Source: Candidatus Baltobacteraceae bacterium
GTDB taxonomy: Bacteria; Vulcanimicrobiota; Vulcanimicrobiia; Vulcanimicrobiales; Vulcanimicrobiaceae
NCBI GenBank assembly: GCA_035502855.1
Contig: DATJTX010000021.1
Coordinates: 248,001 to 312,000 of the forward strand
DNA length: 64,000 nucleotides
Direction: 5' to 3'
Shown here: positions 925 through 20,460 of the stretch, piece after piece
How the letters are laid out: the number at the start of each line of letters is the position of its first letter
How positions within the stretch are numbered: position 1 is the stretch's first letter
The notes under the pieces: model-generated
Seen by the model: the letters and a program-made list of their open reading frames with translations, nothing else
Told to the model about the DNA's origin: nothing
The model's database searches: none
Program-made: the position numbers and the translations under genes

Positions 925-3900
925 TGAAATCCAAGAGCTTTGCACTGATTGCGGCAACGCTCGTGATGATGGTCCTTCCCGCTGCCGCAAGCCCCGTCAA
1001 TCCCTCCGCGCAAACCTTGATGAGCGCCATGCATTGGCGCAGCGTCGGTCCCGGCATCGGCGGCCGCGTGGTCGCGGTCGACGGCGTTCCCGGATCGCCC
1101 GACACGTTCTATTTTGGCGGTGTCGACGGCGGCGTCTGGCGCAGCACCGACTACGGGCTGGTCTGGACGAACCTTACCGACGGGAAGTTGAACGCATCGA
1201 ACAGCATCGGTGCGATCGCCGTCGCGCCCTCGGATCCGCGCATCATCTACATCGGAACGGGCGAGAGCGACATTCGGGGCGACGTCGTCACCGGTGACGG
1301 CGTTTTCAAGTCGACCGACGCAGGCGAGACCTGGCGCTACGCGGGTTTGGTGCGAACGCATACGATCGGCAAGATCGTGGTAGATCCGCACAATTCGAGC
1401 GTCGTCTATGCAGTCTCGATGGGCCACGTCTTCAAGAGCAATCCCGACCGCGGCGTCTTCAAGTCGACCGACGGCGGGGCCACCTGGAAAAAAGTGCTCT
1501 TCGTCAACGATAAGACCGGCGCGATCGACCTGGTGATGGATCCGCACGACGCAAACGTGCTCTATGCCGCGATGTGGCAGGCCTACCGCACGCCCTGGAC
1601 CCTGCAGGACGGCGGGCCCGGCAGCGGGCTGTACAAGACGATCGACGGCGGTGCGCATTGGACGAACCTCTCCCGCACGCCCGGTTTTCCGAAGGGACTG
1701 CTCGGGCGCATCGGCGTTACGGTCGCGGCGAGCGACCCGCGCGTCGTGTACTCGATCGTCCAAGCCAAAGACGGAGGCATCTTCCGCTCGAGCAACGGCG
1801 GTGCGAGCTGGACGCGCGTGAACGACCACATGGAACTGCGTCAGCGCGCCTTCTATTATATGGCGATTTACGCTGACCCGAAGGATCCGAATACGGTCTA
1901 CGTTCCGCAGGTCGAGGCCCTTTGGGTTTCGCGAAACGGAGGCCGGAGTTTTACGCGCCTGCATACGCCGCACGGTGACAACCATATCGTTTGGGTCGAT
2001 CCACGCAACACGAACGTTCTTCTCGAGGGGAACGACGGCGGAGCAACCGTCTCCACCGACGGCGGCAAGACCTGGAGCGGCGACCACAATCAGGCGACGG
2101 GGCAGTTCTACCACGTCGCACTTTCGGACGATCGATTCCCGTTCCGCATTTACGGCGCGCAGCAGGACGAGGGTTCATTCGAAGGACCCAGCGCGAGCGC
2201 GGACGGCATCATTCCTACCACCGACTGGAAGCGCACCGCCTACGGTGAAAGCACGTTCATCGCGCCGCAACCCGGTGACTCGAAAGTGGCGTACGGCAGC
2301 GGCTATTTCAGCATCATGCTGCGCTACGATCGGGGCATCGATGAATATCAAAGTGTGAGCCCGTGGCCGCTCTACCGCGAAGGCGCGTCCTCCGGTGAAC
2401 TCAAGTATCGCTTCGGCTGGACGCATCCGATCTTGTTCTCGCCGGCCAATCCCAAAGAACTCCTCGTCGGCTCGCAGTACGTGCTGCGCAGCGACGACGA
2501 GGGGCAAACCTGGCAGAAGATCAGTCCCGATCTCACCCGCAACGTTGCGACGACGGAGGCGCCGAGCGGCGGTCCGATCGATCTGGATCAATCCAGCGCC
2601 GAAATCTTTCCCGATGTTTCGGCGCTGGCCGTCTCTCCGCTCGACGGTAACGTGATCTGGGCGGGGTCCGCCGACGGACTGGTGCACGTGACGACCGATG
2701 GCGGCGCGAACTGGTCGCTGGTTACGCCGCCGGCGTTGCCGCAGTGGGCCGAGATCTCTTCGATCGAAGCCTCGCACACCGAAAAGGGCACCGCGTATCT
2801 TTCGGCGTCGCGCTACATGTGGGACGACTTTCATCCGTACGTGTACGAAACGACCGATTACGGCAAGCATTGGTACACGATCACGAGCGGTTTACCGGAC
2901 GACCAATACGTGTTCACCGTGCGTCAAGATCCCGACGACGCGCAGCTGCTCTTTGCTACGACCAAGAGCACGGTGTACGTGAGTCTTGACGGGGCCGCGC
3001 GCTGGCAACCGCTCACGCTCAACCTTCCCAACGTCCAAGTGCGCGACGTTGCGATCGACACGCGTCAGGGTGAGGTCGTCGTCGCGACGCATGGGCGATC
3101 GTTTTGGGCGCTCGACAATCTCGCGCTTCTCGAGCAATTGACGAAATCGTCGGCGCAGCACGCGGGCGGAGCGCAGCTCTTCGCGCCGCAAGCGGCGTGG
3201 CTCACGCACGTGTACGGCTCGAGCCCCTACGGCGGGGGAACGGCGACCGGCAACGGCGAGAACCCGCCGTTCGGGGCGACCGTGTTCTTCTACGTGCCGA
3301 AAAGCTATAACGGCAGGACGCCGGTCACGCTGACGTTCCGCGACGAGAAGGGCAATCTGATCCGCCGTTTCGCGCTGCACCGCAAGCCGGCGCCGCGCAA
3401 GCCGCGGGAGCCGGACGAACGGTTCCGTCCCACGCAAGAGGCGGCAAAGGCCTACGAACGGCTCACCGCGATCGCGCCGGGAATGAACAGCTTCCAGTGG
3501 GATCTGCGCTATGCCGACGCGACCGAAGTGACCGGCTTTGAACCGCCGGTGGCGGCGGGTGGCCTCGACGATACCGTCGAGGGGCCGCAGGTCGTGCCGG
3601 GCAACTACACGGTAACGCTCGATTACGGCGGAGCGACCGCGACGACGAGTTTCACCGTTGCGCTCGACCCGCGTATCAAGCTGCCGGACGACGCGCTTGC
3701 GGCGCGCTTGGACCTCGGGATGAAGATCCGTTCCGCGTTGGATACGCTCGATCGCACGATCGACACCGCAATTGCGACTCGCGAACGTTTGCGCGCAGCG
3801 GTGGCCGCTCATAAGGTCAGCGCCGCCCGCGCGGCGGGTGCGCTGGCGCAGCTCGACGCCGCAATCGACGGGGTGGTGCAGCTCGACATCCACTCGAGCG

Positions 3901-4085
3901 AAGGCACGCTGCTGCACGAAGCCAAGCTGCGCAGTTACCTCGCGTATTTGGCGGCCGGGGTCGATCTGGCGTACGTGAAGCCGACGCCCGCACAGTACGC
4001 GGTCTTCGACCAGCTCAGCGGCCAGGCCACGACCGGCGAGGCGAAACTCAAGAGCGCAACGGCGGCGGGGAACGCGCTACTGTAG
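924..4085 (+). CDS. Secreted sortilin/VPS10-like beta-propeller protein
   Basis: This exported protein of 1053 residues begins with a signal peptide (hydrophobic run ALIAATLVMMVLPAAA, cleavage near residue 22). The first 700 or so residues are a many-bladed propeller of BNR/Asp-box repeats such as STDGGATW, SSNGGASW and STDGGKTW, as in the sortilin N-terminal domain family often labelled glycosyl hydrolase. Residues after about 750 form an all-beta region and a helical tail. No catalytic residues can be assigned, so a binding or processing role outside the membrane is as likely as glycoside hydrolysis. A paralogue of similar length lies on the other strand at 21667-24741. It is coupled to the PHP gene by a one-base overlap and its 3' end overlaps the convergent acetyltransferase by 9 bases. 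Confidence 0.85.
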   Translation: MKSKSFALIAATLVMMVLPAAASPVNPSAQTLMSAMHWRSVGPGIGGRVVAVDGVPGSPDTFYFGGVDGGVWRSTDYGLVWTNLTDGKLNASNSIGAIAVAPSDPRIIYIGTGESDIRGDVVTGDGVFKSTDAGETWRYAGLVRTHTIGKIVVDPHNSSVVYAVSMGHVFKSNPDRGVFKSTDGGATWKKVLFVNDKTGAIDLVMDPHDANVLYAAMWQAYRTPWTLQDGGPGSGLYKTIDGGAHWTNLSRTPGFPKGLLGRIGVTVAASDPRVVYSIVQAKDGGIFRSSNGGASWTRVNDHMELRQRAFYYMAIYADPKDPNTVYVPQVEALWVSRNGGRSFTRLHTPHGDNHIVWVDPRNTNVLLEGNDGGATVSTDGGKTWSGDHNQATGQFYHVALSDDRFPFRIYGAQQDEGSFEGPSASADGIIPTTDWKRTAYGESTFIAPQPGDSKVAYGSGYFSIMLRYDRGIDEYQSVSPWPLYREGASSGELKYRFGWTHPILFSPANPKELLVGSQYVLRSDDEGQTWQKISPDLTRNVATTEAPSGGPIDLDQSSAEIFPDVSALAVSPLDGNVIWAGSADGLVHVTTDGGANWSLVTPPALPQWAEISSIEASHTEKGTAYLSASRYMWDDFHPYVYETTDYGKHWYTITSGLPDDQYVFTVRQDPDDAQLLFATTKSTVYVSLDGAARWQPLTLNLPNVQVRDVAIDTRQGEVVVATHGRSFWALDNLALLEQLTKSSAQHAGGAQLFAPQAAWLTHVYGSSPYGGGTATGNGENPPFGATVFFYVPKSYNGRTPVTLTFRDEKGNLIRRFALHRKPAPRKPREPDERFRPTQEAAKAYERLTAIAPGMNSFQWDLRYADATEVTGFEPPVAAGGLDDTVEGPQVVPGNYTVTLDYGGATATTSFTVALDPRIKLPDDALAARLDLGMKIRSALDTLDRTIDTAIATRERLRAAVAAHKVSAARAAGALAQLDAAIDGVVQLDIHSSEGTLLHEAKLRSYLAYLAAGVDLAYVKPTPAQYAVFDQLSGQATTGEAKLKSATAAGNALL

Positions 4086-4621
4086 ACGAGCAAACGGGAT
4101 TGGTTCGGGCGGCTGCGCATCGCCCTCATCGGGGCCGACGTCGCGCCCGAGCCACATCACGTCGTACCAGCGTCCGGCTTTCCAGCCGACACGGCGATAG
4201 ATGCCGATGGGTTCGAAGCCCAGCGCGCGGTGAAGGCCAACGCTCGCGTCGTTCGGGAGCGCGACACCGGCATAGGCGCGCCGGAAGCCCTGTTGCTCGA
4301 GCAATGCGAGGAGACGATCGTAGAGCGCGCGCCCGATACCGCGACCGCGAAAACGTTCATCGAGATAGACGGACACGTCGACCGCCCAGCGGTATCCGGC
4401 GCGCTCGCGGTGTCGTCCCGCATAAGCATATCCTGCAATCGCGCCGTCGCACTCGGCCGCGAGCCAGGGTGTCTGCTCGAGGGTGCTGCGGATGCGCCGT
4501 TCCATCTCCGCGTCATTCGGCGGCTCGTTTTCGAACGATGCGTGTGTGCCCGCGACGATCGGCGCATAGATTGCGGCAAAGGCCTGCGCATCGTCTACCC
4601 TGGCTACGCGAATGATGAGGC

Positions 4622-4625
<4 letters not shown>
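4077..4625 (-). CDS. GNAT N-acetyltransferase, phosphinothricin acetyltransferase-like
   Basis: This 182-residue GNAT enzyme would transfer an acetyl group from acetyl-CoA to an amine. The opening IRVARVDDAQAFAAIYAP and the block THASFENEPP match the PAT/Bar subgroup acting on phosphinothricin, methionine sulfone or sulfoximine. The CoA pyrophosphate loop is RGRGIGRALYD near residue 95, and the late GLHRALGFEPIGIYRRVGWK block is typical of the same group. About 20 residues at the C-terminus exceed the usual length. The start overlaps the stop of the cyclodeaminase gene behind it by four bases (ATGA), so the two are co-transcribed. The physiological substrate is inferred only from family resemblance. 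Confidence 0.85.
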
Positions 4626-6588
<1,963 letters not shown>

Positions 6589-9049: not shown

Positions 9050-9499
9050 ATGCTTCTCGACGTCGTGCTGGCGTGGTTGCATTTTCTGTGTATCTTCTTT
9101 CTCGTCAGCACGCTCGTTGCGGAGCTCGTGCTGTATCGGCAACGAATGGACCGCTTCCGGTTGGAGCAGCTGCGGCGGGTCGATACGCTCTTCGGTATCA
9201 GCGCGGTCCTGGTAATCATCAGCGGGATCTTGCGCGTGACCTTGGGCCTCAAAGGCGCCGCGTTCTACATGCACAATCCGTTCTTCTGGACGAAGATGGC
9301 GCTCTTTCTCGCCGTCGGGCTGCTCTCGATTCCGCCGACGGTTCACTACTTGCGCCTTAAGCCCGCGTCCGACGGGGCCGGAAGCGTCGAGATTCCTCCG
9401 CGGGCGTTTCGCGCCACCTGGACGTTCCTGAGTTGCGAGATCGTGCTTTTGGCCCTCATCCCGTTCTTTGCGACCATGCTCGCCCACGGGTACCAGTAG
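9050..9499 (+). CDS. DUF2214 family inner-membrane protein
   Basis: The 149-residue protein has four predicted membrane segments: residues 5-25 (LAWLHFLCIFFLVSTLVAELV), 45-62 (LFGISAVLVIISGILRVT), 80-98 (FWTKMALFLAVGLLSIPPTV) and 122-142 (WTFLSCEIVLLALIPFFATML). The early histidine in WLHF, the glutamate in AELVLYRQ and the arginine in GILRVTLG fit the DUF2214/CopD-like fold, whose function is not established. The ATG lies four bases after the preceding stop, so it is probably the last gene of the ahcY-metK transcript. Confidence 0.78.
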   Translation: MLLDVVLAWLHFLCIFFLVSTLVAELVLYRQRMDRFRLEQLRRVDTLFGISAVLVIISGILRVTLGLKGAAFYMHNPFFWTKMALFLAVGLLSIPPTVHYLRLKPASDGAGSVEIPPRAFRATWTFLSCEIVLLALIPFFATMLAHGYQ

Positions 9500-9501
9500 G
9501 G

Positions 9502-9571
9502 TTAACTAATTTCTTAGTTGACAAACCGGCGGCCGGGAAGTAGCATGGAGGTATCAACTAATTATTTAGGA
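9502..9571 (+). promoter_or_regulatory. Promoter flanked by two AACTAA/TTAG inverted repeats
   Basis: TTGACA at 9518-9523 and TAGCAT at 9541-9546 are 17 bases apart, a good sigma-70-type promoter. The inverted repeat AACTAA-tttc-TTAGTT (9504-9519) overlaps the -35. A second copy, AACTAA-ttat-TTAG (9556-9569), lies where transcription would begin and runs into the ribosome binding site TTAGGAG (9566-9572). The copies are 52 bases apart, about five helical turns, so a dimeric repressor could sit on one DNA face at both. The regulator is not encoded nearby. Confidence 0.6.
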
Positions 9572-9581
9572 GATACCGGAA

Positions 9582-9752
9582 ATGCTCGCTCGCTTCCTCG
9601 TCAGCTCGATCGCCGCCCTCGTGCTCGTTTTCGCCGGAATTGCGGCACTGGGGACTGCGATCACGCCGCCCGCGCTCAAGATCATCGCCACCGTCGTCGC
9701 ATGCCCCCATCCCGATTCGAGCTACGTGGCCAGCTACGCGCGCACCTTATAG
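9582..9752 (+). CDS. Small membrane protein (56 residues) under its own promoter
   Basis: ATG 9582 follows GGAG with nine bases of spacing and opens a frame of 56 residues ending at TAG 9752. Residues 3-28 form one hydrophobic helix (RFLVSSIAALVLVFAGIAAL). Then come TPPALKIIATVVAC and a short tail with CPHPDSSYVASYAR. It may be a membrane-anchored or exported peptide; the single cysteine at residue 41 could be functional. It overlaps a longer frame that has no coding signals. The promoter with paired operator-like sites and the ribosome binding site make this a real gene in my view. I know no family for it. Confidence 0.62.
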   Translation: MLARFLVSSIAALVLVFAGIAALGTAITPPALKIIATVVACPHPDSSYVASYARTL

Positions 9753-9821
9753 CCGCGGCCGACAAGGCTGCTTGCATCAACGCACCGCAATCCAGTAGAA
9801 TCCCGCAGTACCCCTGCGCGT

Positions 9822-9897
9822 TCCGGATTAGCTCAGTTGGTAGAGCAGCTGACTGTTAATCAGCGGGTCGCTGGTTCGAGTCCAGCATCCGGAGCCA
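9822..9897 (+). tRNA. tRNA-Asn (GTT)
   Basis: The full cloverleaf can be folded. The acceptor arms are TCCGGAT and ATCCGGA, the D arm is GCTC/GAGC, and the anticodon stem is GCTGA/TCAGC with loop CTGTTAA (anticodon GTT, asparagine). The T arm is GCTGG/CCAGC with loop TTCGAGT, and the discriminator is G. The CCA is encoded at 9895-9897. The last 21 bases are duplicated downstream, marking this tRNA as an integration target. Confidence 0.97.
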
Positions 9898-9941
9898 AGT
9901 AACAAACGACCACCCCACGATGGGGTGGTCGTTTGTTACTT
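9897..9941 (+). terminator. Perfect 21-bp hairpin directly after tRNA-Asn
   Basis: Positions 9897-9917 and 9921-9941 are exact reverse complements separated by the triloop CGA. The left arm begins in the last A of the tRNA CCA. Such a stem would stop RNA polymerase or protect the tRNA precursor end, but no T-run follows, so it is not a standard intrinsic terminator. It could equally be the recognition end of a mobile element. Confidence 0.45.
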
Positions 9942-9966
9942 CCACTCGTGATGCTGTGACGAGAAC

Positions 9967-10007
9967 CGTCATCCTGAGCGAGCGCAGGATGCGCGAGTCG
10001 AAGGACG
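9967..10007 (+). repeat. 41-bp dispersed repeat, copy 1
   Basis: This copy starts with CGTCATCCTGAG (9967-9978) and ends with TCGAAGGACG (9998-10007), with a 19-base self-complementary GC core between. A second copy of exactly the same length lies on the other strand at 58774-58814 with identical ends. It resembles REP/palindromic elements with GTCATCCTGAG...GAAGGA ends that I recall from intergenic DNA of several phyla. Confidence 0.65.
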
Positions 10008-10026
10008 AGTCCAGCATCCGGAGCCA

Positions 10027-10669
10027 TTTCGACCGGCAGAATCCTAGAGAAGCGGGGGATTCTGCCATTCCCCGGCGTGTCAACCTGCCGATTCTCGGTT
10101 TGGTGGCACAGAAGTGGCACGCCACGACCGAGGCGGCGGAAAGGTGCGCTATAAGGTGTCTTGTGGCACAGTGACGCTGGTCGCTGAGCCCCAAACAAGC
10201 TCCGATGCGCATTTCGCATCCTTACGGCGACCACAAGAACCTGTGACCCGATATCGTAACGATTGACCTACTCGACGGGTTTGCAAGGGGCCCATTTCCG
10301 TGGTGGCCGGCACTGGGTCGATATCCTCATCAGTCTTCTTGGCCGCCCCCTCGCGAATGCGATCCATATGTTAGTTGGTTTGAGTAATGTCGGCGTCCTC
10401 AGCAGTCGGCTAAGGAGGACGACGCGAGGCGCGAAAATGCCAACTTGTAAGACCCGCGTGTGGCATAATCCATTCGGCCCATAATTGGATTGACCACATT
10501 AAGTGTCGGCCCACCAAAAACGTCGCTCGCCAAGATTCATTTACTGGCGCGTGGATGCGCCGCAGGTGTCCTAATATTCGGCTGGAACAAAAAGTAACGG
10601 GTGTGGGCTTGGCAATTGTTTGCTCCCGCGCGCAATTCGTTAATCTTCACGTAACGGAGGATCGCTTTT
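10027..10669. other. Non-coding stretch between tRNA att copy and island operon
   Basis: I see no convincing gene in these 640 bases; the short open frames lack ribosome binding sites and familiar sequence. The stretch holds a 10-bp inverted repeat GGCAGAATCC/GGATTCTGCC (10035-10066) and three GTGGCAC motifs, one of them within the palindrome GTGGCACGCCAC (10114-10125). A nested stem-loop also occurs: GGTCGC/GCGACC at 10179 and 10232, with GATGCG/CGCATC inside. It reads like the decayed end of an integrated element. The end of the stretch carries the ribosome binding site ACGGAGG for the next gene. Confidence 0.5.
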
Positions 10670-11578
10670 GTGATTCGTGAGACTGCACGCAGAGACTTAG
10701 CACATCGTCTGATTCTGGCGTGGATCGTAGTGGTAGCGCTTCTCTTGACCTCCGTGGGAAGGGTTGCCGCCGTCACCGCGAGGTCTGCAGCAATTGGAAA
10801 ACCGGCGACCGAGGCAATCACGAGCCTCTCTCAATCCCGCGAGGGCCAAGCGCCCACGTGGGTCATCGCGTTTTCGGCGGCTAAACCGCTACACCGAGTT
10901 TCTAACCAGGCGAGTGTCACAGAGCTGTTTTTAAGCAATACTACGTGCCCTTCGACTGCAGCAATACGCACGGAAAGCGTTGCTCGCGTCTCACCTAGCA
11001 ATGCGGCGTACATCTCCTGTAGCGAGGAGGGAAACACTGCCGAGTTACAGTTTAGATCCGCGCTGAACGATCGAATATTACTTGCGCCGGGCGCTACGTC
11101 TCTTACAATTAGTATTCTTGCGGCACCCTCAATGGCCCAGAGGCGCCCTCACATCATTCCGAAAGGGACAACGCTGGGGAGGAATTTTTTCAACGTCGAG
11201 GGCCTGCAGCGAGCATCCGAAATGGAACAGTCTGCAGAGCGCGACAATCTCCAGCTCCTCATAAAGACCAACCGTGGCACGACCATCGCGAACAACGCGA
11301 CTACCAGACTCGCCTCGCTACCGAAGCCGTTTCGACCGATTTTTCTTAACAGCGGCCCGTTCGCTGGCGAGGCAAATGGAAGAGTCGTGAGCGGAACGAG
11401 GGTTGAATTCTTGGGGCACGGGGGCGACGAGCAGACCGCGCTGGAGTTAACGCGCGTGTACTACTTTGTCTATGACTCCAGGACCGGCTCGCTGCTATTG
11501 GCTGGGGATCAATTGGCACCCGACGACTTGGCAGTTCGCTATGGATTGACGCCAAATCGGCTCGCGGGGGTAAAATAA
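10670..11578 (+). CDS. Exported protein of unknown function, first gene of island operon
   Basis: GTG 10670 with ACGGAGG nine bases upstream gives 302 residues. The N-terminus is a signal peptide or anchor (LILAWIVVVALLLTSVGRVAAV, residues 14-35). The mature protein carries cysteines in SNTTCPST and AAYISCSEE and is otherwise polar and probably beta-rich; no family is recognised. The end (TRVYYFVYDSRTGSLLLAGDQLAPDDLAVRYGL) looks like a compact folded domain. The next gene starts one base after the stop. Base composition is visibly more AT-rich than in flanking housekeeping genes, as for the rest of this operon. Confidence 0.68.
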   Translation: MIRETARRDLAHRLILAWIVVVALLLTSVGRVAAVTARSAAIGKPATEAITSLSQSREGQAPTWVIAFSAAKPLHRVSNQASVTELFLSNTTCPSTAAIRTESVARVSPSNAAYISCSEEGNTAELQFRSALNDRILLAPGATSLTISILAAPSMAQRRPHIIPKGTTLGRNFFNVEGLQRASEMEQSAERDNLQLLIKTNRGTTIANNATTRLASLPKPFRPIFLNSGPFAGEANGRVVSGTRVEFLGHGGDEQTALELTRVYYFVYDSRTGSLLLAGDQLAPDDLAVRYGLTPNRLAGVK

Positions 11579-11579
11579 A

Positions 11580-13340
11580 GTGAGTCAACACTACGCATTT
11601 TCGACGGTGGCGCGGTGCGCTGTCATTCTGTCGGCCGCATTCATTCTGGTCGCGTGCGGCTCGTCGGCATCTGGATCGAGGAAGGCAACAACGGCTACTG
11701 GCACTGCGGGCATTATCGGTATTGACAATTACGACGGCTCACTAAATTGCCCACCCATTAGTCCGTATCCGGCACAGGCAGAAAGTGCTACGCAGCAGAC
11801 GTTTACGGCGGATGGTTGGGGCACGCAGACTCAAAATGACCCTCCGAATATGACCAACTCGATGTTTACCTCGATTATGAACAGTGTGAACGCGCTGTTC
11901 TATTTTGGACACGGTGCCACTGGTATTGTCGCGTTTCCTAACGCGTGCTCGTCCCTGGAAGGTGGCAACACACCACCGAGCAGCACATATTGGGGCATTG
12001 GTGACTTGGCAGGGCAATATCCTAAGGCAACCGGCGCGCTCAACTCGACTTTATATCTTGGCTGGATGTTCTTGTTTAGCTCAGACACTGTCGCACCGGA
12101 TGCCGAACAGGACTCCAGCGACGCGTCTAATGCGCCTGGTGCGGTCGCGAACCCGTGGGAACCCCTGTTTTACAACTCCGGCATACCCCTTCACGGCATA
12201 TATGGATATTGGCAATCACCCGGGGAGTGCACGGTAGAGGGAGCAGAAGACAACCGCGCCTGCGACGTCGAGTCAGAGGACAATCCGCCGGTGGCTTCGA
12301 TGCTACTTCAGCAAATCTGGAATCCGACTGCGAATGGCGGAGCGGACATCCTGGACGCTTGGCAACAATCGAATGAGGACAATAACGAGTCAACGTCGTG
12401 GTCGGCTGAAATGGATAACGATTACGCCGTTCTGGATACCTTTTCGGGAACGCCCAGCCGATCCCAGGGTGGCGTGTTGGAATTCGATAGCCCTTATACG
12501 GGCCTGGAATACACAGATATAGTCGTTAAACCCGTAGCTGGCGTTTTAAACCCGGTGGCTGATAACAATGAAACTTTGAATGTAGCCTCCGCGGTCGCCT
12601 CGGGAGATTCCGCCATGTCCGCCGGGTCGTACACGACGGTAACGAGCGGTGGTACCACCACTTACACGTCTGTCGGCGGTCTTCAGGTAACGTATTACCA
12701 AGGCACGTCGGGCGGCGTAACGTACCATGGACATGCGCTGGAGAATCCGATGGCAGTTTCACTTTCCACTGCCGAGACCGCCGCAACCGAGTTTGTTGAC
12801 AACTCCTTTGGCATGCCATCAGACGCGACGCTGTCGGACGTAATCTCATTCTACCTGAAGGTGACCGGCGGAACCAATATGTTAATCGGTTATGAGTTCG
12901 TGTGGACACATTCGAGCGGACCAGTGTTTGGCGGCGATGCAATCAAGGTTGATGTTGAGGATTATCACTACATCGGCAGTTCTACGTGCGAGGAATGGAT
13001 AGAGGACGGGTCGCACTTCATTTGCGGCAAGTACGTCTACACGTACGACGACGAGCCAAATGTCTCGTATGGCTATCGCTTATGGCGTAGCACCGGGGGA
13101 GGTGTGGGATCCACGATATCGCGCTATGACACGGGAACGAATACGATTGATGCCTACACGGCTTCGCTTGCGACACCCGAGTCGGGTAACATCGCATCGT
13201 ATGAGCTGGGATACTGGACAAGCTCGATATCGGTTCCGACCACCATTGCGGAACCGGCCTGGATCTTTACGTCGACGACCGGACGTACCTACGCCGTAGA
13301 TGCCGGTTCGGGAGCGCTTATCGGAACTGAAAGTCTTTGA
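11580..13340 (+). CDS. Large lipoprotein of unknown function
   Basis: This 586-residue protein has a type II signal peptide with lipobox LVAC at about residue 26 (AAFILVACGSS), so it should be lipid-anchored in the envelope. Two parts can be seen. Residues 90-260 contain NALFYFGHGATG and conserved-looking cysteine pairs (SPGECTVEGAEDNRACDVESED). Residues 330-586 are rich in Thr/Ser/Gly beta strands and end in an aromatic strand-rich domain. The FGHG string recalls His-Gly of caspase-like folds, but no matching catalytic cysteine is evident, so I assign no enzyme. GTG start, one base after the preceding stop. A sample line at 12841-12900 is 26/60 G+C, far below neighbouring genes. Confidence 0.68.
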   Translation: MSQHYAFSTVARCAVILSAAFILVACGSSASGSRKATTATGTAGIIGIDNYDGSLNCPPISPYPAQAESATQQTFTADGWGTQTQNDPPNMTNSMFTSIMNSVNALFYFGHGATGIVAFPNACSSLEGGNTPPSSTYWGIGDLAGQYPKATGALNSTLYLGWMFLFSSDTVAPDAEQDSSDASNAPGAVANPWEPLFYNSGIPLHGIYGYWQSPGECTVEGAEDNRACDVESEDNPPVASMLLQQIWNPTANGGADILDAWQQSNEDNNESTSWSAEMDNDYAVLDTFSGTPSRSQGGVLEFDSPYTGLEYTDIVVKPVAGVLNPVADNNETLNVASAVASGDSAMSAGSYTTVTSGGTTTYTSVGGLQVTYYQGTSGGVTYHGHALENPMAVSLSTAETAATEFVDNSFGMPSDATLSDVISFYLKVTGGTNMLIGYEFVWTHSSGPVFGGDAIKVDVEDYHYIGSSTCEEWIEDGSHFICGKYVYTYDDEPNVSYGYRLWRSTGGGVGSTISRYDTGTNTIDAYTASLATPESGNIASYELGYWTSSISVPTTIAEPAWIFTSTTGRTYAVDAGSGALIGTESL

Positions 13341-13382
13341 TGTTCTGCTCATCTTTAGAGTCGCAATAATCGTGTACTTGCT

Positions 13383-14885
13383 GTGGGTGATGTCGTAAAG
13401 ATCGGGGGATTGCTCCGGCTAGGGCGATGGCGGGCGCGCGCACTTGGTTGTGCGATTCTTTACACTGTGCTGTGCACAGGAGGCATCGCGCTAGGGGCAT
13501 CGGAGTTTGTTACGGGCGTTAAGGTCGAGGGTCTCGCCGGTGGCTACACGCGGGTCGACATAACCTTTGCCGGAAACGCGCCGCCTAATTTTCAGCTTTC
13601 CGGCGATGGCGGACAGACCGTGCTCGTTCAGATTCCAGATTCTTCTGCGAGTGGGGTTGTTCTCAATCACCCGTATCTCGGTGCCAACGGGGTCTCGTCT
13701 GTCACGGTTACTGACATCGGCGCGGTGACCGTGCGCATCGATCTTACTCAGCCGCTGCATGTTGTAGCGGTAGCCTCCGGGCATGATCTCGTCCTCGACG
13801 TCGATACGTCGCCAGCGCTTTCGTCCGCCCGGACGCAATCCACTTCTACCGGGCCAGCGATTGAAGGCGCCAGGACCTATGTCGTGGTGCGTCTTCAGTA
13901 TGCGGATGTCGGCGAGGTCGCAAACCTACTTGTAAGTGGGCAGCAAGTTCAGCCGACTGCTCCGTTCCAGCCCCAAGGGTCCATCTTTAGCCTGCCGACC
14001 TCCGCCGGTTCGCAGAGTGTAAATAGTGGTGGCATCAGTAGCCTAACCGGGCCGCAGGAACCGCTCGGAGCTAGGTTGAGCGATTCAGTCGCGTATGATC
14101 GTCGTCTCAACGCGATTATTCTGTCTGGAACCCCGGCGGAGATCGCCGCGATGCGAAATCTCATCGCGCAAGTAGACGTACCGGCGCAGAGCGTGATGCT
14201 TGAGTGCAAAGTCGTTGAGATGAGTGAGGCGACGGCCACTGACTTGGGGCTCGGTTTGAATGCGGGTGCGGGCACGCCTGTCGCGGTGGGGACAGTAGCT
14301 GCCGGCGGTACGCCGGGATCGAAGCCGCAATATAATTTATCAGCTCAGGCCAATCTTTACGCGACGATAGAGCGCGATGGCGGGAAGGTGCTCGCTTCGC
14401 CGAGTGTGCTCGCCACGGACAACGTGGCGGCGCAGATTCTGACCGGCGACGCGTTGCCAATCATCACAACGACTATCTACCCGGGAGGCACGGCAGTAAC
14501 GCAAAGCAGTGTTAATTACATTGCGGTTGGCGTAAATCTCCAGATTCAGCCACACGTAGCGAGCGATGGCTACGTTACTTCGGATATCTTTGCTGAAGTG
14601 TCTAGCGTGACCGCATATGTGACGACGTCGCAGGGAAGCGTGCCCGAGATTAGCCTTAGGCAGATCACTACACTGGCCCGCGTGAGAGATGGCCAGCCGT
14701 TTGTCGTCGGAGGTCTCTTTCTCAACGAGGAGATAACGTCTATGACCCGGATTCCTGTCTTATCCGAGCTACCTCTGCTCGGTGGGCTATTCCGAGCGCG
14801 TCACGACTCATCGAGTCTTTCAAATCTTTACGTCGTTGTCACTCCCCACATTTTACATTCGAGCGCGGACCAGGGGTCGCAGTAA
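13383..14885 (+). CDS. AMIN-domain secretin (outer-membrane channel)
   Basis: This 500-residue secretin of the PilQ/GspD superfamily would form a gated outer-membrane ring. After a signal segment (ALGCAILYTVLCTGGIALGA, about residues 20-39) come an AMIN domain (residues 42-140, VTGVKVEGLAGGYTRVDITF) and a short N-domain (YVVVRLQYADVGEVANLL ... LNAIILSGTPAEIAAMRNLI, about 160-260). The secretin core begins at MLECKVVEMSEATATDLGL. It ends with the signature VVGGLFLNEEI, IPVLSELPLLGGLFR and LYVVVTPHIL. AMIN domains bind peptidoglycan. It is shorter than typical PilQ (650-700). No pilus, pseudopilin or ATPase genes are nearby. The GTG start is the first plausible one. Confidence 0.88.
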   Translation: MGDVVKIGGLLRLGRWRARALGCAILYTVLCTGGIALGASEFVTGVKVEGLAGGYTRVDITFAGNAPPNFQLSGDGGQTVLVQIPDSSASGVVLNHPYLGANGVSSVTVTDIGAVTVRIDLTQPLHVVAVASGHDLVLDVDTSPALSSARTQSTSTGPAIEGARTYVVVRLQYADVGEVANLLVSGQQVQPTAPFQPQGSIFSLPTSAGSQSVNSGGISSLTGPQEPLGARLSDSVAYDRRLNAIILSGTPAEIAAMRNLIAQVDVPAQSVMLECKVVEMSEATATDLGLGLNAGAGTPVAVGTVAAGGTPGSKPQYNLSAQANLYATIERDGGKVLASPSVLATDNVAAQILTGDALPIITTTIYPGGTAVTQSSVNYIAVGVNLQIQPHVASDGYVTSDIFAEVSSVTAYVTTSQGSVPEISLRQITTLARVRDGQPFVVGGLFLNEEITSMTRIPVLSELPLLGGLFRARHDSSSLSNLYVVVTPHILHSSADQGSQ

Positions 14886-14894
14886 GGCCTGATC

Positions 14895-15554
14895 GTGCGG
14901 TATCTGAACGTAGTTGGATCGATCTTCACCATCGTTATTTTTGCGCTGGGCTGTACCCATCGGCAAACCGCAAATCAGCCAAGCGACATTCACTTCATGA
15001 GCCCTGGCGTGAAAGAAATCGTGGCAGCTTTGCTGCGCACTGCCTCCGAGCCGGCGAAAGCTCCACCGATGAAGAGCGAACGCTTACGCCAGCTTATCGG
15101 TCTGCCGCCGCCGCCGCCGCATTATGAGGCATTCGGGATCCCAGATCACGGCCACGGTTTTGTTTATCGCGAGATCATAGGCGAAAACGGTGACCGCTTC
15201 TTCATACGGCCGATCAATTGGTACGTTGGACGCGTACCTTACCGCTGGCAAGATGTACTTTCAGCGGCGTTACAGCTGGCTCGACCGCTGCTAGCTGGGT
15301 ACAAGGATCACCCTCTCGCGAGCGGCGCTCTATTTACTGCGCAAGGAAAGCCCGCTGTTGAATTTATCACAACGGTGGGCTCGAGTCCGGCTGGAATCGA
15401 TAGCGATTTTTTGGAAGTCCTCGTCTATCTGCCAGGATCGACGCTGTTCGATGTCATTGTGCCATGCCGCGGATGGACGACGCCGCTGCCGCGTCCGACG
15501 CCGGGTCCCAAAGACTGCGAGAGCCGGTGGGAGAAGCTTGCCGAGCGCACATGA
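14895..15554 (+). CDS. Small lipoprotein of unknown function in secretin operon
   Basis: This 219-residue protein starts at a GTG nine bases after the secretin stop. A lipobox FALGC near residue 20 (IFTIVIFALGCTHR) predicts lipid anchoring. A polyproline run (IGLPPPPPHYEAFGIP, residues 71-86) separates the tether from a C-terminal domain with GFVYREIIGENGDRFFIRPINWYVGRVPYRW and two late cysteines (VPCRGW, GPKDCES). Position suggests a pilotin-like partner or accessory of the secretin, but no pilotin family resemblance is visible. Its stop overlaps the next ATG (ATGA at 15551-15554). Confidence 0.68.
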   Translation: MRYLNVVGSIFTIVIFALGCTHRQTANQPSDIHFMSPGVKEIVAALLRTASEPAKAPPMKSERLRQLIGLPPPPPHYEAFGIPDHGHGFVYREIIGENGDRFFIRPINWYVGRVPYRWQDVLSAALQLARPLLAGYKDHPLASGALFTAQGKPAVEFITTVGSSPAGIDSDFLEVLVYLPGSTLFDVIVPCRGWTTPLPRPTPGPKDCESRWEKLAERT

Positions 15555-16222
15555 GGCGCCAGGCAGTCGGGACGATTATCGCTGCCGCAGTTCTAATCGT
15601 GTTAGCCTCAAATGCCCGGCCTCTTCAAGCGGAGGGAGACGCTAAGCGCGTCCTCTTTGTTGGTGCTAGCGAGACACTTGGTTTCGGGCTCAGGCCAGGA
15701 GAGGATGCTTACCCGCAAATACTTGAGCATACTTGCGGATTTAAACCCATCGTTAATGCAGCGGTAAATCGCCCAGTTCTCGGGCGAAACGTCTCGGCCG
15801 TGAACGTTGCTGCAACCGTAATCTTCATATCGCAGTTTGATGCGTCCAGCGATGTGACCATTAGCTCCATCCGGTATTGGCTTAAACGCTACGAACGGGT
15901 AGTAATTGTCGAGGCCCCTTTAACCGGCGAAGGTGGCCTGAGCTTTTCCGACTTACTATTCGCGCAGCGTGCGCTTTATCAGAAGATGCGTACGGTTGCA
16001 GATAGCCTGAGGATCCCGGTAGTGCTCCTTCGGCTTCCATACTCACCGAGTGAGTATCTGCAGGCGGATAAGATCCATCCTAACGCACTCGGCCAGCGGG
16101 AAATAGCGCGGCAATTGCAGCCGTATCTAGGGGAACTGGGCATCTGCAGAACGTCACCAGATCCAAGATTGTCGGTGGCGCCTGCTGAAAGCAAGACCAC
16201 AGCTCGGGGAGACTTGTCATGA
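15551..16222 (+). CDS. Exported SGNH/GDSL-type hydrolase
   Basis: This 223-residue protein begins at ATG 15551, overlapping the preceding stop, and has a signal peptide (AVGTIIAAAVLIVLASNARPLQAE). The SGNH blocks are visible: VLFVGASETLGFGL supplies the nucleophile serine (GASET, a variant of GDS) and DKIHPNALGQREIARQL supplies the catalytic Asp-x-x-His. The intervening ISSIRYWLKRYERVVIVEAPL fits the alpha/beta fold. It may deacylate a sugar, lipid or peptide modification in the envelope. The glycine-asparagine blocks are poorly conserved, so activity is likely but not certain. Last gene of the island operon. Confidence 0.72.
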   Translation: MRRQAVGTIIAAAVLIVLASNARPLQAEGDAKRVLFVGASETLGFGLRPGEDAYPQILEHTCGFKPIVNAAVNRPVLGRNVSAVNVAATVIFISQFDASSDVTISSIRYWLKRYERVVIVEAPLTGEGGLSFSDLLFAQRALYQKMRTVADSLRIPVVLLRLPYSPSEYLQADKIHPNALGQREIARQLQPYLGELGICRTSPDPRLSVAPAESKTTARGDLS

Positions 16223-16474: not shown

Positions 16475-18190
16475 GTGAGGCGGCTTTCGGTACCGCGATG
16501 GCTGCGGCGAACACTGTTCCTCATCGCGGTATATGCTGCCGTGATGTACGTTTTCGTGCAGCTTCCCGGCGGCTGGCACGACTGGGATTGGGCAGCGTTC
16601 AACGTTCTCGACGCGTTGCAGCACGGGGGCCCGGCAAAGCCCGACCCGTCGATCGTCTACGTCGATTTCATGTACGACGCAAATAGCGCCGCGATACCTC
16701 AGCGAAGACGCGCCCTCGCGACGTTCATCACGACGGCGGTCTCACAGAAACCCCGCGCGATCGTCCTGGACTTCGCGTTTTCGAGGTGCCCGGATACGCC
16801 GTGTGACGCGCAGTATTCACGGGCGAACGAAGCGCTGCTCGTAGCCCTCAACGCCGCGCATCGTAGCGGGGTAAACGTGTTTGCTACGATCACCGAGCCC
16901 AACGCCGTCGACGATGAAGGGCTTCCCGACAATCAGCCCGCGAACAAGCTCGATCGCGCGATTTACGAAGCCCTCGCGAACTACGGACACAGCGGCATCG
17001 AGGTTCATTCCGGGGAAAAACCGCCCGCGTACGCCGGCGAACTCTACTATCATGCCTGCATCCCGTTCGATCGCTGGCCGCCGCTCTTTTCGGGAAGCAG
17101 CCTGCAGGAAGATATCTGGTCGCTCGTCGATGTGGCGGCCGATTCGGATCACGAATCATTCCCGCCGCCGCCGGGAAGCCCGCACGTTTGCAATATTCGC
17201 ATGCTGATACCCGCGCGTTACGGAGCAGTGATATCGGGAGCCGAAACGCATCGCATTACGGTGCAGCAGCCATTCCCGCCAGATGCGAACTTCGCGGGCA
17301 AGTTCGTCATCGTCGGTGCTGCCGAGCACGACGTGCATGAAGAGTCGCACCACCCCGGTCCGGATCTGCTCGCCTGGGCGATCGGCGATGAGCGCGCGTT
17401 TCTGCGGTTCGATCCGGCAACGCCCGACCGGCCCGGCGCGCTGCTCTTCCTCGTCATCGCGTTCTCGCTGATCACGGTCGGCGCATTCGTCGCGTTGTTT
17501 TTCGCATTGCGGCGACTGCCGCTCGGCGCGTTGCGCTCGGCATTGCCCTGGATTGCCGCAGGGCTCGCCTTGGGCTGCGGAATCGTAGTATTCATCGCTT
17601 TCGAAGTCGCGATGTTTACGATGGCGAATAAAATCCAACCGCAGGTCTCGCTCGTCGCGCTCGGTATGCTCCTGGCCGCAGTCCTCTGCGGCGTCTGGGG
17701 TGCCCGCATGGAGTTCGAGGTGTTGCAGCAGATCGGCGGCGACCCCACGCGCGAAGCATACGACTGGGACGTCTTCATCAGCTACGCGCATGAGGAGATG
17801 GATTGGGTCGTCGCCAACGTCTACGAGCCGCTGAAGCGCGCGCAGCCGGCAAACGGCAGAGCGTTGAAGATCTTCTTCGACAAAAATTCCATCCGGTACG
17901 CGGCCGTCTGGCAAGACAACATCGTGCATTCGATCGCCGGGAGCCGCTTCGTCGTTGCGGTTTTCTCGGAGGTCTATTTTAGCCGCCCGTATTGCAATTG
18001 GGAGATCCGCCGCGCGTACCGGAAGTTGATCGACCGCGGACTGGACTCGCGGGTCGTCTTTGGGGTGATGCGCGGAAAGGTCGCGGTCCCGAAGGCGATC
18101 GATGACATCCAGTACGAGAGCATCGAGGACAACCCGGGACTTATGGATCAGTTCATCGCTGAAATTACCGCGCGCCTGGAGCAAACCTGA
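16475..18190 (+). CDS. CHASE2-like membrane sensor fused to a TIR domain
   Basis: The preferred GTG at 16475 gives 571 residues; an in-frame ATG at 16253 would add 74 low-complexity residues. A membrane helix (FLIAVYAAVMYVFVQL, residues 12-28) leads to an extracytoplasmic region of about 290 residues with the CHASE2 pattern (PDPSIVYVDF, RALATFITTAVSQKPRAIVLDF, FAGKFVIVGAAEHDVHE). Three more helices follow at about 320-415 and then a cytoplasmic TIR domain (YDWDVFISYAHEEMDWV from about residue 428). KIFFDKNSI and SRPYCNWEIRRAY follow, the last holding a glutamate at residue 510 where NAD-cleaving TIR enzymes carry their catalytic Glu. CHASE2 normally feeds kinases or cyclases, so a TIR output is unusual. 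It is probably a sensor-controlled NADase or a signalling scaffold. Confidence 0.78.
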   Translation: MRRLSVPRWLRRTLFLIAVYAAVMYVFVQLPGGWHDWDWAAFNVLDALQHGGPAKPDPSIVYVDFMYDANSAAIPQRRRALATFITTAVSQKPRAIVLDFAFSRCPDTPCDAQYSRANEALLVALNAAHRSGVNVFATITEPNAVDDEGLPDNQPANKLDRAIYEALANYGHSGIEVHSGEKPPAYAGELYYHACIPFDRWPPLFSGSSLQEDIWSLVDVAADSDHESFPPPPGSPHVCNIRMLIPARYGAVISGAETHRITVQQPFPPDANFAGKFVIVGAAEHDVHEESHHPGPDLLAWAIGDERAFLRFDPATPDRPGALLFLVIAFSLITVGAFVALFFALRRLPLGALRSALPWIAAGLALGCGIVVFIAFEVAMFTMANKIQPQVSLVALGMLLAAVLCGVWGARMEFEVLQQIGGDPTREAYDWDVFISYAHEEMDWVVANVYEPLKRAQPANGRALKIFFDKNSIRYAAVWQDNIVHSIAGSRFVVAVFSEVYFSRPYCNWEIRRAYRKLIDRGLDSRVVFGVMRGKVAVPKAIDDIQYESIEDNPGLMDQFIAEITARLEQT

Positions 18191-18303: not shown

Positions 18304-18456
18304 GTGAAATCGTTCAAGCCAGTACTCGTGGCAGTCGCTGCCTTCGCTTTTATCGCCTGCGGACTCTGCGTTCAGGCGTCGGCCGGCACGCTCGTACCGC
18401 CTACGTGCGGCGGCTTCAGCAATGCCTGCGGCTCGTCCATTCCTGGCGGCCAATAA
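18304..18456 (+). CDS. Secreted cysteine-containing small peptide (50 residues)
   Basis: GTG 18304 follows a GGGAGG box at about 18287-18292. It encodes a signal peptide (KPVLVAVAAFAFIACGLCVQASA, cleavage after ASA near residue 27) and a mature peptide of about 23 residues with two cysteines eight residues apart (PPTCGGFSNACGSS) and a Gly-rich end. Such a layout fits a secreted signal, bacteriocin-like or structural peptide with one disulfide. It lies 113 bases after the CHASE2-TIR gene, after three tandem ACCTGAG units (18186-18212), and before the Sel1 protein, in the same direction. I know no family. Confidence 0.55.
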   Translation: MKSFKPVLVAVAAFAFIACGLCVQASAGTLVPPTCGGFSNACGSSIPGGQ

Positions 18457-18534: not shown

Positions 18535-20460
18535 TTGGTTTTTTGTGTTGCGGCCATCGGACCGGTGCGCGCCGACGGGCGCCTTCCGAGCGTGGTCGAT
18601 ATTCGGGTCGGAAGCCGCAGCGACGCCGATCATGTCGACGGTGTGACGGTTCGAACGGTCGCCGGTCAGGTATCGGAACGTCGCCTCGAATTGGGCGATA
18701 GGATCGGCAACGAAACGATCACCGTACCCGCGAATGACACGATCGTGCTGGGCGCGCCGGACGGCCGCGGCCGAATGACGCTCGAGCCCGGCGGCACGTA
18801 TTCGTTTCAAAACACGGGCAGGCTCGAGAAGACGACGGTGGAAGCCCCGGGGCGCGTCGAGGTCCACGATCCGCTCGGGTTCTTCAGTAACATAACGGCA
18901 GGGGGCGTCGCGGCTTCTTCCGAGGACCCCGACTTCTCGATCGCGGTGACCGCTACGAAGGTGACGCTCACCTCCGCGAAGGGCCTCGTCTATGCGGAGG
19001 CGCTTCCGGGCGTCAGCGTCGTCGCGAACGCGCCCTGCACCACGATGCCGCCCGCCTACGGCGTGCGCTACGACGAAGTTTCGCCGGATGCGCTTCGCAC
19101 GATCACCTATACTCGCGGGATACGCCCGGCGGCAAACGTAACGCTGGCCGACGACCAGCGTCTAGCAGCGACGGGCAACGCGTACGCCGAGTATAATCTC
19201 GGCTCGCGCTACGAAAACGGCCGTGGTGTCGCCAAAGACGATGCGATCGCATTGCACTGGTACCAAAAGGCCGCCGATCAAGGTCTTCCCGATGCCGAGA
19301 ACAAGCTCGGCGCCATCTACGATTCGGGACGCGGCCTCAAGCGCGACTATGGCAAGGCGCTGCATTACTACAAACTCGCCGCGGCTAAGGGCTTTGCCGA
19401 AGCCGAGAAGAACGCCGGTTCCGTCTACGACGACGGGCGCGGTGTGCCCGTGAACTACCCGACGGCGCTGCACTTTTACCGCGAAGCTGCCGCGCAAGGC
19501 CTTGCGAGCGCGCAGGACAAGATCGGGGTTCTCTATCGAGAGGGACACGGCGTCAGGAAGAGCTACCCGACGGCATTACAGTGGTTTCGCCTCGCCGCCG
19601 CACAGGGGTTGCCCGACGGACAGTTTGACCTCGGGCTGATGTACGCGGTCTACTTTGACGAAGCACGCGTGCCGCAGGACGAGGGAGCCGCGCTGCGACT
19701 GTTTCGTCTCGCCGCTGCCCAACGATATGCGCTGGCGCAAACCGAAATTGGCATCTTGTACTTGTACGGAGTGGGCGTGCCGCAAAACTACCTTGCGGCG
19801 CGGGAATGGACGAAACGTGCCGCCGATCAAGGATCCCAGTGCGGCGAGAGAAACCTCGGCATGTATTACGAACTCGGCTTGGGTGTCCCGCTGGACTATG
19901 CGGCGGCGTTGCATTGGTATTTGCTCGCGGCGGCCCAGGGCAATGCTCAGGCGGACTGGCGGATCGGAGCGTTCTACGAAAACGGCGACGGCGTTCCTCA
20001 AAGCTATGCAGCCGCGATGCACTGGTATCAACTCGGAGCGGCGCTGGGCTGGGCCGGAGCGAAGTTCGCCATCGGAGAGATGTATTATAACGGACGCGGC
20101 GTGACGCGGGACTATACGACCGCCATGAAGTGGTATCGGTCGGGGGCGGAAGATGAGTCCGAGGCGGCTGTGCTCCCCTCGGCGCGGCTCGGCGATATGT
20201 ATTATGAGGGGATCGGTGTACCGCGTGATTACTCCGCGGCGCTGCATTGGTATCTCATCGCAGCCTCGCCGCTCCCGCCGTATGCCACGATCTTTCCCGA
20301 CCTTTATCACCTGCTCGATCCGGCTCGCGGCCGCGCGCACTATCGGCTCGGCCTGATGTACTACTACGGCTACGGCGTGCCGCGCGACCGCGTGAAAGCG
20401 CTCCAGTGGTTCAAGCTCGCTTGGGCCGACGGCTATCCCGAGGCGAAGTTCGCTCCGTAG
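18535..20460 (+). CDS. Exported FecR-like/Sel1-repeat protein
   Basis: Two parts are visible. Residues 10-170 resemble a FecR-type beta domain (GVTVRTVAGQVSERRLELGDRI, TITVPANDTIVLGAPDGRGRMTLEPGG). Residues 195-640 hold eleven Sel1-like repeats of about 36 residues, each with the pattern LGxxYxxGxGVxxDYxxALxWYxxAAxQG, which form helical solenoids that bind partner proteins. The start is uncertain. TTG 18535 gives LVFCVAAIGPVRADG, only half a signal peptide. The same frame is open back to the TAA at 18454-18456 with a positively charged lead and no ATG or GTG. An upstream non-standard start or a sequence change is possible. Export with cleavage before DGRL is still likely. Confidence 0.78.
   Translation: MVFCVAAIGPVRADGRLPSVVDIRVGSRSDADHVDGVTVRTVAGQVSERRLELGDRIGNETITVPANDTIVLGAPDGRGRMTLEPGGTYSFQNTGRLEKTTVEAPGRVEVHDPLGFFSNITAGGVAASSEDPDFSIAVTATKVTLTSAKGLVYAEALPGVSVVANAPCTTMPPAYGVRYDEVSPDALRTITYTRGIRPAANVTLADDQRLAATGNAYAEYNLGSRYENGRGVAKDDAIALHWYQKAADQGLPDAENKLGAIYDSGRGLKRDYGKALHYYKLAAAKGFAEAEKNAGSVYDDGRGVPVNYPTALHFYREAAAQGLASAQDKIGVLYREGHGVRKSYPTALQWFRLAAAQGLPDGQFDLGLMYAVYFDEARVPQDEGAALRLFRLAAAQRYALAQTEIGILYLYGVGVPQNYLAAREWTKRAADQGSQCGERNLGMYYELGLGVPLDYAAALHWYLLAAAQGNAQADWRIGAFYENGDGVPQSYAAAMHWYQLGAALGWAGAKFAIGEMYYNGRGVTRDYTTAMKWYRSGAEDESEAAVLPSARLGDMYYEGIGVPRDYSAALHWYLIAASPLPPYATIFPDLYHLLDPARGRAHYRLGLMYYYGYGVPRDRVKALQWFKLAWADGYPEAKFAP

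Follow-up and report, generated by a model that had tools for sequence, protein, structure and literature searches.

A CHASE2-TIR membrane protein family of Candidatus Eremiobacterota with a predicted exported FecR-like partner and recurrent SLOG-SLATT neighbours

Results

Organization of the locus and of the CHASE2-TIR protein

The window, that is, the whole stretch of DNA that was analysed, comprises 64,000 nucleotides from the genome of a soil bacterium of the uncultured Candidatus Eremiobacterota (GenBank assembly GCA_035502855.1, contig DATJTX010000021.1, positions 248,001 to 312,000). An uninterrupted open reading frame in it translates into one protein that combines a membrane-bound sensor with an intracellular TIR domain. 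The features of the locus, all on the forward strand and given in positions of the window, are as follows.

15464-16222 (+): SGNH/GDSL-like protein, predicted to be exported and encoded immediately before the receptor gene; Pfam match below cut-off, membership in the locus doubtful
16475-18190 (+): CHASE2-TIR receptor gene, 571 amino acids; the start may lie further upstream (candidates ATG 16256, ATG 16277, and GTG 16475, of which homologues favour a start near 16475)
16496-16561 (+): transmembrane helix 1, residues 8-29 (AlphaFold helix and hydropathy)
16568-17431 (+): extracytoplasmic CHASE2 sensor, approximately residues 32-319 (Pfam and profile-profile comparison)
17432-17731 (+): three transmembrane helices, residues 320-346, 351-384, and 391-419 (AlphaFold and hydropathy)
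17762-18187 (+): cytoplasmic TIR domain, residues 430-571 (Pfam TIR_2 and Foldseek TIR matches)
17990-18004 (+): segment Y506-C507-N508-W509-E510, in which the invariant Tyr506 and Glu510 align with Trp and Glu of TcpB and TLR2
18304-18456 (+): small open reading frame of 50 amino acids between receptor and partner, with a strong Shine-Dalgarno sequence (GAGGGAGGT), a signal-peptide-like N-terminus, and a Cys-containing tail
18535-20460 (+): predicted exported partner, whose N-terminal region is FecR-like (scored at 55 bits by the family model and not detected by Pfam) and is accompanied by ten or more Sel1 repeats; its true start codon is possibly upstream

The protein encoded at 16475-18190 belongs to the CHASE2 and TIR superfamilies. 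The Pfam CHASE2 model matches residues 23-288 with 33.8 bits (cut-off 26.3), and TIR_2 matches residues 433-550 with 51.1 bits (cut-off 28). The predicted inside loops are positively charged, in agreement with the usual CHASE2 topology of one N-terminal transmembrane helix and three after the sensor. The AlphaFold model is of moderate quality (pLDDT 74, pTM 0.53), and its transmembrane layout agrees with hydropathy. When the model was compared with solved structures by Foldseek, TIR domains came first, the top matches being those of Hydra TRR-2, MAL, MyD88, AbTir, RPP1, and SPARTA. Thus, the initial annotation of this gene as a CHASE2 sensor and a TIR output on one protein is borne out by the open reading frame, Pfam, the topology, and the family of 14 proteins described below.

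Two further genes lie upstream. A Secretin like those of type II/III secretion or of type IV pili is encoded slightly upstream, at 13383-14885 (+), and is recognized by Pfam with 133 bits. The SGNH hydrolase was considered as a fixed member of the locus and rejected: such a gene is present at two loci only, in the window and, after the receptor, at locus L029, and the two proteins are mutually unrelated by phmmer.

The CHASE2-TIR family and its distribution

A whole-genome search yielded 13 more full-length homologues, two of which are encoded in the same genome (contigs C24 and C16), giving three receptor copies in the source organism. The complete architecture is kept in all 14 members, although the others share only 32-42% identity with the window protein. 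Since the same architecture recurs in homologues of independent genomes, the fusion is neither a chance event nor a chimera. Three cysteines of the sensor (Cys105, Cys195, and Cys239) are invariant across the alignment of the 14 sequences, as are Tyr506, Cys507, and Glu510 of the TIR domain, Tyr506 having been checked by eye. The window copy carries Ala476 in the BB-loop region, at a position occupied by Gly in more than 90% of the family.

The family is patchily distributed within Candidatus Eremiobacterota: it is present in 10 of 149 genomes, which represent one taxonomic family and five genera. A search of 1338 genomes of four other phyla (292, 350, 347, and 349 genomes), in which few candidates were scored per genome and which a very different CHASE2 or an N-terminal TIR would escape, returned TIR-only matches or none, and no full-length fusion. 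A search of plasmids with the receptor gave no match, nor did a scan of named genomes with the single protein as the query. When the alignment was used for the latter scan, full-length fusions were found in Eremiobacterota/WPS-2 only, the remaining matches covering the TIR part alone.

The sensor of the family is divergent, with just 7 of the 14 members reaching a Pfam E-value of 0.01 for CHASE2. Profile-profile comparison of the family with 19 ordinary CHASE2 proteins of the phylum aligned the CHASE2 region alone, with a probability of 92% and an E-value of 5e-7. By these sequence comparisons, the sensor is a divergent but real CHASE2. The C-terminal output of the ordinary proteins is a cyclase domain in 18 of the 19 cases; in the family described here, therefore, the TIR domain takes the place of the cyclase as the output. 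We found no description of a CHASE2-TIR fusion in the open-access literature, and an earlier mention is possible; where both terms occur together, CHASE2 appears alongside caspase proteins.

Conserved residues of the TIR domain

All 14 TIR domains have a catalytic-type glutamate preceded by an aromatic residue four positions earlier (Tyr506 and Glu510), as in NAD+-cleaving TIRs. The initial annotation had singled out E510 as the glutamate of NAD-cleaving enzymes. Its invariance is in line with that assignment, but TLR2 has Trp and Glu at the aligned places, so Glu510 by itself is little proof of NADase activity. It should be noted that the match scores do not tell enzymatic TIRs apart from scaffolding ones. 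The solved TIR nearest by single sequence is that of TLR2 (27.5 bits), and the NAD hydrolases TcpB and AbTir are also among the solved matches. The sequence of the receptor thus permits NAD cleavage, and we infer an enzymatic activity of its TIR domain in part from the genes found beside the family.

A predicted exported FecR-like partner

Clustering of open reading frames revealed a second conserved gene at the receptor loci, which the initial annotation had missed. Its product is predicted to be exported, with a signal-peptide-like start and a FecR-like domain, followed in most cases by TPR or Sel1 repeats. With a family model, it was detected at 13 of the 14 loci and is the most constant companion of the receptor; the sole locus without it is L029, where the SGNH hydrolase mentioned above takes its place. 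The FecR domain exceeds the Pfam cut-off only in L020, L022, and L031.

At eight loci, the stop of the receptor gene and the start of the partner gene overlap by 4 bp (a GTG start at 1883 in L027 is counted), a classic arrangement that suggests translational coupling. In the window, 344 bp separate the receptor from the partner downstream of it, and the small exported-looking reading frame falls in this interval. At L019, the paralogous locus on contig C16 of the same genome, the partner is upstream of the receptor, and the gene between the two (9351-11048 (-)) encodes an RHS-repeat protein with DUF6531. At L025, the receptor operon adjoins a gene (3326-5743 (+)) whose product joins a protein kinase to a LanC-like lanthionine synthetase domain.

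An operon of a FecR-domain protein and a CHASE2-kinase is known in Burkholderia (PMC5192318) and provides a precedent for the sensor pair, though with a different output. Whether FecR partners generally accompany CHASE2 in the phylum was also considered, and the idea was rejected: 31 ordinary CHASE2 loci, which extend only about 1.5 kb out, gave one weak match.

Genome G094 contains, at L090, a short open reading frame (5650-6000 (-)) that matches only the N-terminal ~100 amino acids of the CHASE2-TIR family, and a FecR/TPR partner gene (11070-13877 (-)) located 5 kb from it. The pair is perhaps a decaying second copy of a receptor locus.

SLOG-SLATT and patatin neighbours

At 7 of the 14 loci, in four genera, a membrane protein combining SLOG and SLATT regions is encoded within about 5 kb of the receptor. 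Its position varies by genus, being upstream, downstream, or divergent. The other half of the loci, the window among them, have no such gene close by. In the source genome it is located on contig C5, apart from all three receptors, and so would act in trans.

These proteins consist of an N-terminal SLOG-type domain and SLATT/DUF4231 transmembrane regions. DUF4231 is found above the Pfam cut-off in the L025 protein (28.7 bits) and in the copy of the source genome (27.6 bits), while SLATT_3, SLATT_1, and SLOG families are found below the cut-off only. The AlphaFold model (pLDDT 84.5, pTM 0.85) has an N-terminal domain for which Foldseek returned DprA, ShosA, and TM1055 folds with a probability of 1.0, TMt up to 0.50, and a weak E-value of about 0.01; TRPM8 and TRPM2 channels also match the model, with lower probability. 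Sequence comparison with the PDB and comparison with PADLOC gave no match. SLATT proteins have been predicted to be nucleotide- or ADPr-regulated pore formers or membrane effectors that recur with TIR genes (PMC7159879; PMC9503650).

Four of the seven SLOG-SLATT loci (L021, L022, L023, and L028) also encode a patatin phospholipase, which matches the CBASS-type phospholipase effectors of PADLOC with 139 bits. Among 99 genomes of the taxonomic family, SLOG-SLATT is present in 10 of 10 with the receptor versus 21 of 89 without it (Fisher p 3e-6 by genome and 5e-4 by genus, both values ignoring shared ancestry). An exclusive association with the receptor is rejected: in the 21 receptor-less genomes, SLOG-SLATT genes stand beside patatin, other TIRs, and TPR-S, and are thus not dedicated to the receptor.

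At L106, L110, L111, L112, and L113, SLOG-SLATT and patatin genes are neighbours without a CHASE2-TIR receptor, and the pair looks like a stand-alone conflict module. Proteins combining TIR and DUF4062 are encoded at L020 (2299-3765 (-)) and L110 (1665-3230 (+)), a few kb from FecR or SLOG-SLATT genes.

Discussion

A possible circuit and its alternatives

The architecture of the receptor and its neighbourhood are observed, and every step of the chain that we draw from them is conditional. In our opinion, the chances are about even that CHASE2-TIR is the membrane receptor of an outside-in conflict circuit, serving defence or suicide. In such a circuit, the exported repeat protein, by itself or together with a ligand, would engage CHASE2 upon a disturbance of the envelope by phage, a competitor, or damage, and this would cluster the TIR domains inside the cell. 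The clustered TIRs might then cleave NAD+ by means of Tyr506 and Glu510, yielding an ADP-ribose-type signal to be read by the SLOG domain of SLOG-SLATT, whose SLATT helices would permeabilise the membrane; the CBASS-like patatin phospholipase would be a second effector where present.

Several observations favour this circuit: a conserved family with an invariant Tyr/Glu pair, a FecR-like partner at nearly every locus, SLOG-SLATT adjacency in four genera together with its constant co-occurrence with the receptor, and patatins similar to known phospholipase effectors. Against it count the occurrence of SLOG-SLATT beside other genes in receptor-less genomes, the half of the loci that have no SLOG-SLATT nearby, Ala476 of the window copy, and the uninformative TIR scores.

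The TIR domain might instead kill by itself through direct depletion of NAD+, SLOG-SLATT and patatin being separate genes of a defence-rich region. The invariant Tyr and Glu, the NAD hydrolases TcpB and AbTir among the solved matches, and the 21 genomes that have SLOG-SLATT without the receptor all suit this explanation, but repeated adjacency in four genera with varied gene order and 10 of 10 co-occurrence would not be expected of independent genes, and we consider it unlikely. The initial annotation had left the choice between NAD depletion and a nucleotide signal. The presence of SLOG-SLATT and patatin genes near members of the family favours the signal over plain depletion, and it makes an NAD-derived signal likelier to a greater degree than the glutamate does.

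We find it similarly improbable that the TIR acts as an assembly module without enzymatic activity, like those of TLRs and MyD88, such that clustering nucleates a TIR platform recruiting another protein. The proximity to TLR2 by single sequence, the top folds (Hydra TRR-2, MAL, and MyD88), and the TLR-like layout of outside sensor, membrane, and inside TIR are what one would expect of such a module; yet the receptor has no constant neighbour gene for a second TIR adaptor, and the SLOG-SLATT neighbours indicate a small-molecule signal. Finally, ordinary envelope signalling, in which an NAD-derived second messenger would regulate biofilm or cell wall rather than cause death, has a parallel in the biofilm effect of the Burkholderia FecR-domain and CHASE2-kinase operon (PMC5192318) and could accommodate as many as three receptor copies per genome, but appears very unlikely given that membrane damage is typical of SLATT and patatin effectors and that presence in 10 of 149 genomes is more like that of conflict genes.

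The conflict circuit may be specified further as a surface-triggered, Thoeris-like path, running from the exported FecR-TPR/Sel1 protein through CHASE2-TIR and an NAD-derived signal to a SLOG-SLATT pore and a patatin lipase. Such a path would parallel the TLR layout in a prokaryote, its output being an enzymatic one. This version is tentative, and we place it below an even chance.

Comparison with known systems

The sensor pair resembles in organization the BiofilmReg operon of Burkholderia, in which an exported FecR/LysM protein and a CHASE2-histidine kinase likewise form a core of exported FecR-domain protein and CHASE2 membrane receptor (PMC5192318). Here, the output is a TIR rather than a kinase, the repeats are TPR/Sel1 rather than LysM, and the receptor gene comes first. 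The CHASE2 adenylate/guanylate cyclases of the phylum share with the family the sensor domain, the 1+3 transmembrane layout, and a nucleotide-signal output (as proposed for the TIR), and differ from it in the output domain, the sensor subfamily, which is divergent here, and the coupled FecR-like partner.

Toll-like receptors resemble the family in having a sensor outside, a membrane passage, and a TIR inside, and TLR2 is its closest solved TIR by sequence. Unlike them, the present proteins have CHASE2 in place of LRRs and four transmembrane helices in place of one, and the likeness in layout comes without a sign of common receptor origin.

On the effector side, the TIR-SLATT pairs and SLOG-SLATT systems described by Burroughs and Aravind (PMC7159879; PMC9503650) likewise pair a TIR gene with one for a 2TM protein of the SLATT type, for which ADPr-type gating is predicted. 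In the present case, the TIR is linked to CHASE2 and to a FecR-like partner that is predicted to be exported, so that the trigger probably lies outside the cytoplasm. With CBASS the likeness is confined to the type of phospholipase effector, no CD-NTase having been found among the neighbours scanned.

Thoeris consists of the TIR protein ThsB and ThsA, the latter being SIR2-SLOG or TM-macro. The systems are alike in that a TIR adjoins a SLOG protein and in the proposed path from a TIR product to a SLOG sensor and an effector. Unlike in Thoeris, the TIR is here carried by a membrane receptor whose sensor is extracytoplasmic and whose partner is predicted to be exported, and the effectors are SLATT and patatin; the PADLOC ThsB model matches the receptor in the TIR part only (13.7 bits, E 0.006). 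Pfam scans of the neighbours examined found no SIR2 or macro domain; without a SIR2-SLOG or TM-macro ThsA, the system is not Thoeris. Most TIR systems known from prokaryotes are cytoplasmic and respond to intracellular cues. The genes described here extend the known FecR/CHASE2 sensor pair by a TIR as its output and form a defined set with which to ask, in a testable way, whether a TIR/NAD alarm can be raised from the surface of a bacterial cell. If the proposed circuit is true, it would amount to a Thoeris-type pathway fed from outside, with a cell-surface trigger instead of intracellular cues.
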